Positions 55,871 to 64,000 of a stretch of 64,000 nt of DNA are shown piece by piece (position 1 is the first letter of the stretch; the number at the start of each line of letters is the position of its first letter). The translations under genes and the position numbers were made by a program. The notes under the pieces are model-generated. The model ran no database searches. It was not told the origin of the DNA and saw only the letters and a list, made by a program, of their open reading frames with translations. The stretch comes from Desulfurispirillum indicum S5 (GTDB lineage Bacteria > Chrysiogenota > Chrysiogenetes > Chrysiogenales > Chrysiogenaceae), in NCBI RefSeq assembly GCF_000177635.2, contig NC_014836.1, positions 1,748,001 through 1,812,000 on the forward strand, given 5' to 3'.

Positions 55871-55902
55871 CTGCTGGCCGGTCACTCACCTCTGGCCAGC
55901 AG
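55871..55902. other. Hairpin between convergent accD and gshA
   Basis: CTGCTGGCC (55871-55879) pairs perfectly with GGCCAGCAG (55894-55902) around 14 bases; it covers the gshA stop codon. No T-run, so possibly a factor-dependent or bidirectional stop. Confidence 0.5.
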
Positions 55903-57387
55903 CTCCCACAGCCCGGTGACCTTCTCCATCCGATCATAAGCCATTTTGTGCAGTCGCCCCAGTGACAGGCCATGCTCCACAAAAGAGGTTCCCCCCTGGG
56001 TCAATTCGGCCATCATCATGCCGGACAGCGTCAGCTCGCTGTTTTCAATACGCTCGCGGGCACGCAGTACACATCGGGTATATTTCGGTTCTTCGCCGTG
56101 CTCATCAAGCAGCAGTGCGATCTTCTCCATATCTCCCAGAAACAGACGCGCCGCCTGCCGCATATCGCGTTTCTGGCCACAGAAAGCAATTTCGATACCA
56201 GGTTTGCGTCCCTCCAGCGCCACAAGACGCTCATTGCTGTTGATCTCCTCTTCCCGCTCGCGCCGTGAGCAGTGATCACTGTGGCGCAGCAGACAGTAGA
56301 TGAGCAGCATATGCAGGAAGTACAGGCGATCGCACTCCAGCCCGAAGGGATTATAGGGATTGAGGTCAGAAGCCCTGACTTCAATATAACGCACACCAGA
56401 TCGCTCCAGGGATTCCAGCTGCGTCTCCCCCGGCTCGGGACTGTTCTTGAGCCGTATGGGCGCATAGTACTCATTTTCGATCTGCAGCACATTGGCATTG
56501 AGCTGCACCTGCTGCCCGTCACGGTAAAGACCCAGGGCCTCGTAACGGCTGTCGGGCATGCTCATGGCCCGGCGCAGGTCGCTGATGTAACGCTCAAGGG
56601 TATTGTAGCAGACGCGGAAATTGCGCTGCTCTTCATTGGAGTAGCCGAAATGGCTCATGCGCAGTGATGTGGCGTAGGGCAGACCATAGGTATCGGTGCC
56701 AACCAGCTGCAGAGCCTCCAGCGCTTTGGTGGTATAAGACGAATCCACCACAGGCGAGGCACCGTACAGGTAGACAAACAGCCAACGCAGGCGCAGGAAA
56801 TTGCGAACCATGGCGCAGTAGCCTTCGTTGATGAAGTCCTGTAAATCCATATGGGACACTGGCAGCTTCCCGTGGAGAAACTCCCAGAAATCCTGACTGA
56901 ACGAGAAATTATAGTGTATACCGCAGACCATCTGAATGACCTTGCCATAACGCAGGGCCAGGCCACGTCGGTAAATCTCCTTTGCCATCCCCGCTGCACC
57001 TTCGCCGTAGTGGGCAATGGGAATATCGGCTTCCGCGGGCAGACGGCACGGCATGCTCATGGGCCAGAGCAGTTCTCCATTGATATTCTGACTGACAAAG
57101 CCGTGTATCTGAGCCAGAAAACGGTAGCACTCCTCCAGGGTGGCAAAGGGCGGCGTTATGAACTCCAGCTGGCTTTCTGAAAAATCCGTGGTAATAGCGG
57201 GGTGGGTAAGCTTGTCGCCAATGGCCCGAGGGTGCGGGCGCAGACTCAGGGTTCCATCGCCGAGCACCCGCAGGGCTTCACGCTCCAGGCCATGGTTGCC
57301 CTTGCCCAGCAGCGCCTTTCCTGAACCCTGGGAGAAAAGGCGAAGGTTGTCTTCAAAGTTCCAGTGGGCGGATTCTGTCCAGATCAT
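55882..57387 (-). CDS. gshA: Glutamate-cysteine ligase
   Basis: First step of glutathione synthesis. 501 residues of the proteobacterial class I type. Seen: KGNHGLEREALRV, DFSESQLEFITPP, LLWPMSMPCRLP, the His-rich GIHYNFSFSQDFW, and RYIEVRASDLNPYNPFG. The start follows the glutaredoxin stop by one base, so both are read as one operon. gshB is not in the window. Confidence 0.94.
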   Translation of the reverse strand: MIWTESAHWNFEDNLRLFSQGSGKALLGKGNHGLEREALRVLGDGTLSLRPHPRAIGDKLTHPAITTDFSESQLEFITPPFATLEECYRFLAQIHGFVSQNINGELLWPMSMPCRLPAEADIPIAHYGEGAAGMAKEIYRRGLALRYGKVIQMVCGIHYNFSFSQDFWEFLHGKLPVSHMDLQDFINEGYCAMVRNFLRLRWLFVYLYGASPVVDSSYTTKALEALQLVGTDTYGLPYATSLRMSHFGYSNEEQRNFRVCYNTLERYISDLRRAMSMPDSRYEALGLYRDGQQVQLNANVLQIENEYYAPIRLKNSPEPGETQLESLERSGVRYIEVRASDLNPYNPFGLECDRLYFLHMLLIYCLLRHSDHCSRREREEEINSNERLVALEGRKPGIEIAFCGQKRDMRQAARLFLGDMEKIALLLDEHGEEPKYTRCVLRARERIENSELTLSGMMMAELTQGGTSFVEHGLSLGRLHKMAYDRMEKVTGLWELLARGE

Positions 57388-62751: not shown

Positions 62752-62780
62752 CTGTTTACCTTTTCCATTTTTGGTATAAA
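62752..62780 (+). promoter_or_regulatory. Candidate promoter of the C39/RimK pair
   Basis: An extended -10 TGGTATAAA ends at 62780; CTGTTT (62752-62757) stands 17 bases upstream. It is 29 bases before the peptidase ATG. Confidence 0.5.
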
Positions 62781-62808
62781 ATTTTCACCTCTTACCTGGA
62801 GGGCACCC

Positions 62809-63552
62809 ATGGAGCAGCAACTATCCCTTACCATTCTCCCTCAGCCCGATGACACCACCTGTGGACCAACGTGTCTGCACAGCATTTACGAATACTACCA
62901 CGACCCGCTGCCCCTGTCGCAGATCATTGCCGAAGTTCCCACCCTCGCGGAGGGCGGTACCCTGACGTCACTGCTGGGAGCCCACGCTCTGGGGCGCGGC
63001 TACAGCGCGCAAATGTACTCCTACGACCTGAATATGTTCGACCCCACCTGGTACGGCCTGAGCTCTGCCCAGCTGCAGCAGAAGCTGCAAGCGCGCATGG
63101 AATTCAAGGCCGACAGCAAGTTCACTGTCGCCACCAGGGCCAATATGGATTTCCTCGACCTGGGGGGAAAGTTTATCTTCGAGGATCTCACGCCGGAGCT
63201 TATCCGGCGTTTTCTTTCACGGAATATTCCGATCATCACCGAACTGAGCGCCACCTATCTCTACCGCAGCGCCCGCGAGTTCGGCTACGATATGGTCTTC
63301 GACGATGTACGGGGCGAGCCATCGGGACACTTTGTCGTCATGAGCGGCTACAGCCGGCCCGGCAAAACCGTTCATATTTCCGACCCTCTGATTCCCAACT
63401 TTTATGCACCGTCAACACCCTACGCGGTCCCCATCAGTCGACTCATCTGCGCCATTCTCCTTGGCGTCCAGACTTACGGGGGAACACTGCTGATCATTCA
63501 ACCCAAGCCAGAACAAGGAAAAACCCATGCACGCACTCATCGTAGTGAATGA
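62809..63552 (+). CDS. C39-like papain-fold cysteine peptidase
   Basis: 247 residues, no signal peptide. The predicted triad is Cys18 in DDTTCGPTC, His174 in SGHFVVMSGY and Asp192 in HISDP, with oxyanion Gln12 (Q-x5-C), as in C39-like bacteriocin-processing peptidases. No ABC transporter is fused. GGAGG is about eight bases before the ATG. It overlaps the following RimK-type gene by 26 bases, so the pair is translationally linked. A peptide-bond hydrolase working on the product or target of the ligase is inferred. Confidence 0.82.
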   Translation: MEQQLSLTILPQPDDTTCGPTCLHSIYEYYHDPLPLSQIIAEVPTLAEGGTLTSLLGAHALGRGYSAQMYSYDLNMFDPTWYGLSSAQLQQKLQARMEFKADSKFTVATRANMDFLDLGGKFIFEDLTPELIRRFLSRNIPIITELSATYLYRSAREFGYDMVFDDVRGEPSGHFVVMSGYSRPGKTVHISDPLIPNFYAPSTPYAVPISRLICAILLGVQTYGGTLLIIQPKPEQGKTHARTHRSE

Positions 63553-64000
63553 TCCCGCTGACTGGGAACTGGACATACCCGGAGTGGAGATGGTCTCCGC
63601 CTGGAGCTATCTTACCTGTGACAGCTACAGTAAAATGCGGCGACTGAGGATCTACAACCTCTGCCGTTCCTACAGCTACCAGAGCTTCGGCTACTACGTC
63701 TCCCTGCTGGCAGCGGCGCGTGGACACAAGCCATTTCCCACCGTCAAGGCCATCCAGGACATGGAATCCAGCTCCATTGTGCGACTGATGTCCAGCGAAA
63801 TGGACAAGCTGATTCAGAAGAACCTGGGCTACCTGCAGTCGGACAGTTTCGAGCTGAGCATCTACTTCGGCAGAAACCTGGCAAAACGCTACGATCGCCT
63901 CTCTGCGTACCTCTACCGCTTCTTTGAAGCTCCTTTCCTGCGCGCCTACTTCCAGAAGGTGGGCAACCGCTGGCAACTGGAGACCGTTACTCCCATCGCC
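63527..64000 (+). CDS. RimK-type ATP-grasp ligase, N-terminal part (truncated by window)
   Basis: Open reading frame from the ATG at 63527 to the last base (158 codons so far). MHALIVVNDPADWELDIPGVE, then WSYLTCDSYSKMR, VYNLCRSYSYQ-like IYNLCRSYSYQSFGYYVSLL and RGHKPFPTVKAIQDM match the N-terminal domain found in front of RimK-like ATP-grasp glutamate ligases. The ATP-grasp core must lie to the right of the window. Overlap with the C39-like gene implies joint function. Confidence 0.72.
   Translation, partial: MHALIVVNDPADWELDIPGVEMVSAWSYLTCDSYSKMRRLRIYNLCRSYSYQSFGYYVSLLAAARGHKPFPTVKAIQDMESSSIVRLMSSEMDKLIQKNLGYLQSDSFELSIYFGRNLAKRYDRLSAYLYRFFEAPFLRAYFQKVGNRWQLETVTPIA

Follow-up and report, generated by a model that had tools for sequence, protein, structure and literature searches.

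A Conserved Cassette of RLAN/ATP-Grasp and GCS2 Ligases with Two Predicted Amide Hydrolases in Desulfurispirillum indicum S5

Introduction

Glutathione synthesis (GshA/GshB, GshF) combines a γ-glutamyl ligase with an ATP-grasp ligase, and the two are sometimes fused. Phytochelatin synthase is a papain-fold enzyme that acts on a glutathione-type peptide (PMC10318531). Amidoligase/peptidase systems were predicted by Iyer et al. 2009 (doi 10.1039/b917682a, PMC3268129), whose work is described here as it is reported in PMC4431377 and PMC10318531. According to PMC4431377, these include operons joining ATP-grasp genes to other ligase genes (COOH-NH2 ligase, GNAT), and according to both papers, operons or fusions in which peptide ligases are combined with peptidases and further ligases. 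PMC10318531, citing the same study, also ties a DUF3335-GNAT fusion to peptide ligation. In Pseudomonas, the RimABK system couples a ligase to a protease (PMC11957791). No experimental study or biochemistry of a cassette of RLAN, C39, GCS2, and FGase genes was found in the literature searched.

Here, we describe such a cassette in Desulfurispirillum indicum S5, the genome of which is a single contig of 2,928,377 bp. The window is the 64,000-nucleotide stretch at bases 1748001-1812000; the sequence rightward of it is denoted L002, in which each position equals the window position minus 60000.

Results

At the right-hand end of the window, a gene at 62809..63552 (+ strand) encodes a stand-alone, C39-like papain-fold cysteine peptidase of 247 aa, assigned from its open reading frame, Pfam matches (Peptidase_C39_2, E=1.5e-9; Peptidase_C39, E=1.9e-6), and an AlphaFold2 model (mean pLDDT 91). 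The residues Q12, C18, H174, and D192 are kept in 98%, 99%, 100%, and 100% of 94 family members, respectively. The catalytic set that a sequence-only reading had called intact is real, as judged by this conservation, and the Gln-Cys-His-Asp set together with the C39-like fold places the protein among the C39-like papain-fold peptidases. The top PDB matches of the model were C39 leader-peptidase domains. Behind them came PeiR, an isopeptidase (E about 2e-5), and, more weakly, Alr0975, a phytochelatin synthase that acts on glutathione (E about 8e-4). The protein falls outside peptidase C39 proper, the leader-cleaving exporter type, as it has no fused ABC transporter, and no exporter or precursor is conserved nearby. 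The promoter-like motif 5' of the gene (TTTACC-N16-TAAAAT, 62755..62782, + strand), previously considered a plausible promoter, does not rise above chance, with 2 matches in the region against 2.5 expected.

The peptidase frame overlaps by 26 bp (63527..63552, + strand) the gene for an RLAN/RimK-type ATP-grasp ligase of 489 aa, which starts at 63527 on the + strand, runs through the window end at 64000, and continues to window-equivalent position 64996 (L002 3527-4996). The same 26-bp overlap was seen again in other loci. Both frames, their overlap, and the RLAN-type N-terminus had been recognized correctly from the window: Pfam detected RLAN (PF14401, E=5.7e-47) and RimK ATP-grasp (PF08443, E=1.4e-15), and the ATP-grasp core on which the earlier interpretation depended is complete, located past the window end. 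K283, K322, D437, E449, and N451 are kept in about 100% of 99 homologues. An RLAN domain followed by a RimK-type core with nucleotide and metal residues assigns the protein to the RLAN/RimK ATP-grasp family. The closest solved structures to its model (mean pLDDT 88) were RimK, LysX/ArgX, and D-Ala (Ddl) ligases, in alignments that covered the ATP-grasp part only. The score for the S6-modifying RimK equivalog (NF007764) was 36 bits, short of the cut-off of 331.

Two further genes follow outside the window. The first, at window-equivalent 64968-66233 (L002 4968-6233), overlaps the RLAN gene by 29 bp and encodes a GCS2-family carboxylate-amine ligase of 421 aa (PF04107, E=6.7e-25), in which E26, E28, E76, H149, and R276 are kept in 94-98% of 97 homologues. 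It scored under every NCBIfam equivalog cut-off, and a single-sequence search against the PDB gave no sequence-level match. The second, at window-equivalent 66226-66939 (L002 6226-6939), overlaps the GCS2 gene by 8 bp and encodes a hydrolase of 237 aa belonging to the N-formylglutamate amidohydrolase (FGase) family (PF05013, E=8.1e-27). Its residues E12, H13, H36, D40, H127, and E205 are invariant among 60 homologues, and its score for the HutG equivalog was 18 bits versus 279. Genes for an RND adaptor and permease come next; we rejected this pump as a cassette part, since it is without a homologue in the other 85 loci examined below. The suggestion that a substrate gene might be encoded to the right was not borne out, as the GCS2, FGase, and non-conserved RND genes occupy that position.

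Scanning one genome per species with a six-homologue alignment yielded 164 loci, and the best 80 of the 164, our own locus, and five relatives from the same phylum made up a set of 86. Because these loci were chosen by similarity to the query RLAN protein, the following fractions describe that subfamily and not all RLAN proteins. The order C39–RLAN/ATP-grasp–GCS2(–FGase) recurs among the 86 loci in at least 13 phyla, identified by tree position and record titles (Thermodesulfobacteriota, Planctomycetota, Pseudomonadota, Bacteroidota, Balneolota, Myxococcota, Chlamydiota, Verrucomicrobiota, Nitrospinota, Nitrospirota, Bdellovibrionota, Hydrogenedentota, and Sumerlaeota). Among loci with enough sequence, 78 of 82 have the C39 gene upstream and in the same orientation, 75 of 79 have GCS2, and 48 of 72 have FGase, which a third lack. 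Most C39–RLAN gaps ranged from -35 to +22 bp. Homologues of the peptidase and the ligase are thus regular neighbors, and the functional coupling proposed for them agrees with the conserved gene order and the intact active sites. No further neighbor family occurred in more than 9 of the 86 loci, no pathway or transport genes were conserved around the cassette in this set, and no small ORF (20-110 aa) in the 700 bp flanking each side of the cassette was conserved across the family. An acetyltransferase-nitrilase (GNAT-nitrilase) type fusion adjoins the cassette in four loci (L097 10775-12340, L040, L042, and L098; Pfam was run on one).

PF14401 was found in 54/232 genomes of one class (sampled around a Wenzhouxiangella genome), in 53/195 genomes of one phylum (around a planctomycete genome), and in 0/14 model genomes that served as controls. 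From PF14401-positive genomes we took 40 RLAN neighborhoods, a sampling less biased than that of the 86-locus set. GCS2 adjoins or is fused to the RLAN gene in 16 of the 40. In 18 of the 24 without GCS2, which represent a sister lineage of RLAN, a protein combining GNAT and C39-like (DUF3335, PF11814) domains is encoded nearby (a domain-level count, with Pfam run on one member), and in 15 of those 18 it lies directly upstream of RLAN on the same strand. Two more of the 24 have a GNAT-like N-terminus fused to RLAN itself. GNAT-RLAN-ATP-grasp fusions of 652-654 aa are encoded at L201 5457-8063 and L202 4011-6825, adjoined by a SET-domain-like protein judged by its NHSC and EYG motifs only. In two planctomycete genomes, RLAN/ATP-grasp and GCS2 are fused in one frame. 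Nearly all GCS2-linked RLANs cluster in the tree as one group with 100/99 support that holds two exceptions, and a deep branch with RLAN/ATP-grasp–GCS2 fusions lies outside it, the root being arbitrary. The neighborhood counts and the tree together indicate that both RLAN lineages occur with a papain-fold peptidase, while the partner switches between GCS2 (with or without FGase) and an acetyltransferase.

Eroded copies were found among close relatives. One genome of the same family keeps an intact RLAN/ATP-grasp gene alone (L015 8223-9689), beside chemotaxis-type genes, and C39 and GCS2 were not detectable in that genome. Another keeps only a decayed GCS2 (L221 5599-6819), which matches 34/71 conserved positions, has lost active-site residues, and has the same divergent M16 peptidase gene as a neighbor. 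In a genome of the same phylum (L016 9320-10550), two in-frame TAG codons break an otherwise conserved GCS2 frame. These copies suggest that the family ancestor already had the cassette and that it can be dispensed with.

The window also contains a canonical E. coli-type gshA (55882-57387, - strand; PF04262, E=1.9e-145), and no PF02955-type glutathione synthetase was matched in the genome. γ-Glutamylcysteine may be an end product, or gshB may be replaced by something else. The canonical gshA led us to reject the cassette GCS2 as the only γ-glutamylcysteine ligase of the genome, and this GCS2 therefore need not use cysteine. The presence of gshA without a PF02955 match likewise argues that the cassette is not simply the glutathione pathway of the cell, though the two may still be connected.

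Discussion

From protein families and gene order, the unit is a four-gene operon of two predicted amide ligases and two predicted amide hydrolases, with unrelated folds within each pair. The cassette is real and widespread, and with an operon order conserved across 86 loci it belongs to the predicted peptide-ligase and peptidase systems of the type of Iyer et al. 2009, as that kind is defined in the citing papers. The sequence-only reading, which had envisaged a ligation-and-trimming pair, retains its general logic of ligating and trimming, but the unit also includes the GCS2 ligase and the FGase hydrolase.

Two ligases in fixed order and sometimes fused suggest successive amide bonds on one product, and two hydrolases suggest trimming or turnover. 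The lack of a conserved cis-encoded precursor or exporter points to either a common metabolite or a protein whose gene lies elsewhere as the substrate. We favor, with about even confidence, a cytosolic set that makes and trims a small γ-glutamyl-type peptide metabolite, because of the analogy with glutathione synthesis, which pairs a γ-glutamylcysteine ligase with an ATP-grasp enzyme, and with the papain-fold phytochelatin synthase. In this scheme, GCS2 would couple a glutamate-type carboxylate with an amine at the expense of ATP, and the RLAN/RimK ATP-grasp enzyme would then attach a further amino acid to the GCS2 product, with the RLAN domain helping to bind substrate. One amide bond may be the site of cleavage or transfer by the C39-like enzyme, while the FGase-like enzyme may cut an acyl-glutamate-type bond, steps that would trim or recycle the product. 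A more tentative version holds that this product is a γ-glutamyl-type peptide cofactor or stress metabolite, glutathione- or phytochelatin-like, in at least 13 phyla; a non-Gsh ligase pair would build the compound, and a papain-fold hydrolase or transferase would mature it.

A metabolite product is consistent with the protein families, the conserved catalytic residues, the tight gene order, and the RLAN/ATP-grasp–GCS2 fusions, and with the matches of the C39 model to PeiR and Alr0975, which rank behind the C39 domains. However, the phytochelatin-synthase similarity is weak and common to other papain-like enzymes, a third of loci lack the FGase gene, the L015 and L221 relatives keep one gene each, and with a canonical gshA in the genome, the cassette GCS2 need not use cysteine. 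The ATP-grasp domain is also nearer to RimK and LysX/ArgX, which have protein or carrier-protein substrates, than to GshB. That these are the nearest solved ligases favors protein tagging, in which the RLAN/RimK ligase with GCS2 would attach amino acids to a house-keeping protein, much as RimK does with ribosomal protein S6, and the C39-like and FGase-like hydrolases would take them off again. Two hydrolases suit a reversible modification, the absence of conserved pathway or transport genes around the cassette suits a target encoded elsewhere, and the SET-domain-like protein (motifs only) beside the GNAT-RLAN-ATP-grasp fusion in L201 and L202 points the same way. Nevertheless, the RLAN/ATP-grasp–GCS2 fusions look like enzymes that make successive bonds on one small molecule, and the characterized GCS2 enzymes, to our knowledge, act on small molecules, which counts against tagging; we consider it a credible reading of lower probability than the γ-glutamyl-type metabolite.

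The known roles of C39 peptidases in processing exported-peptide leaders and of ATP-grasp enzymes in making graspetides (PMC8939145) would allow a RiPP-like maturation, with a ribosomal precursor modified by the ATP-grasp enzyme and freed of its leader by the C39 peptidase. We consider this very unlikely: the family-wide search for a small ORF flanking the cassette found none conserved, the unit lacks an ABC exporter, and a RiPP pathway would offer no obvious task for GCS2 or FGase. With neither an exporter in the unit nor a conserved small ORF beside it, the earlier analogy with cleavage after Gly-rich leaders is not supported. A catabolic or salvage unit, in which an amine would be γ-glutamylated and then hydrolyzed as in the use of γ-glutamyl-putrescine, would explain the ligase-plus-hydrolase logic, the FGase family, and the GNAT-nitrilase neighbor in four loci, but it is improbable, given that no amine oxidase, aldehyde dehydrogenase, or transporter is conserved near the cassette.

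RLAN occurs in roughly a quarter of the sampled genomes of two large bacterial groups and in none of the 14 model genomes; a common pathway therefore appears to have escaped study. As the two ligases and two hydrolases form a constant set that lacks a cis-encoded substrate, the question of its product is directly testable.

Among known systems, the RLAN/ATP-grasp and GNAT–C39-like (PF11814, DUF3335) pairs share the RLAN/ATP-grasp protein and a neighboring papain-fold peptidase with our cassette. In contrast to those pairs, the window peptidase, from a different C39-like family, has no GNAT domain; in its place the cassette carries GCS2 and FGase. RimK of the RimABK system (S6 polyglutamylation) has an ATP-grasp domain homologous to that of the cassette, whereas RimK carries no RLAN domain, GCS2 does not take part, and the protease is retropepsin-like rather than C39. 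Like GshA/GshB or GshF with phytochelatin synthase, the cassette pairs GCS2-family and ATP-grasp ligases with a papain-fold enzyme; unlike in glutathione synthesis, its GCS2 reaches no NCBIfam equivalog cut-off and its ATP-grasp enzyme is RimK-like.
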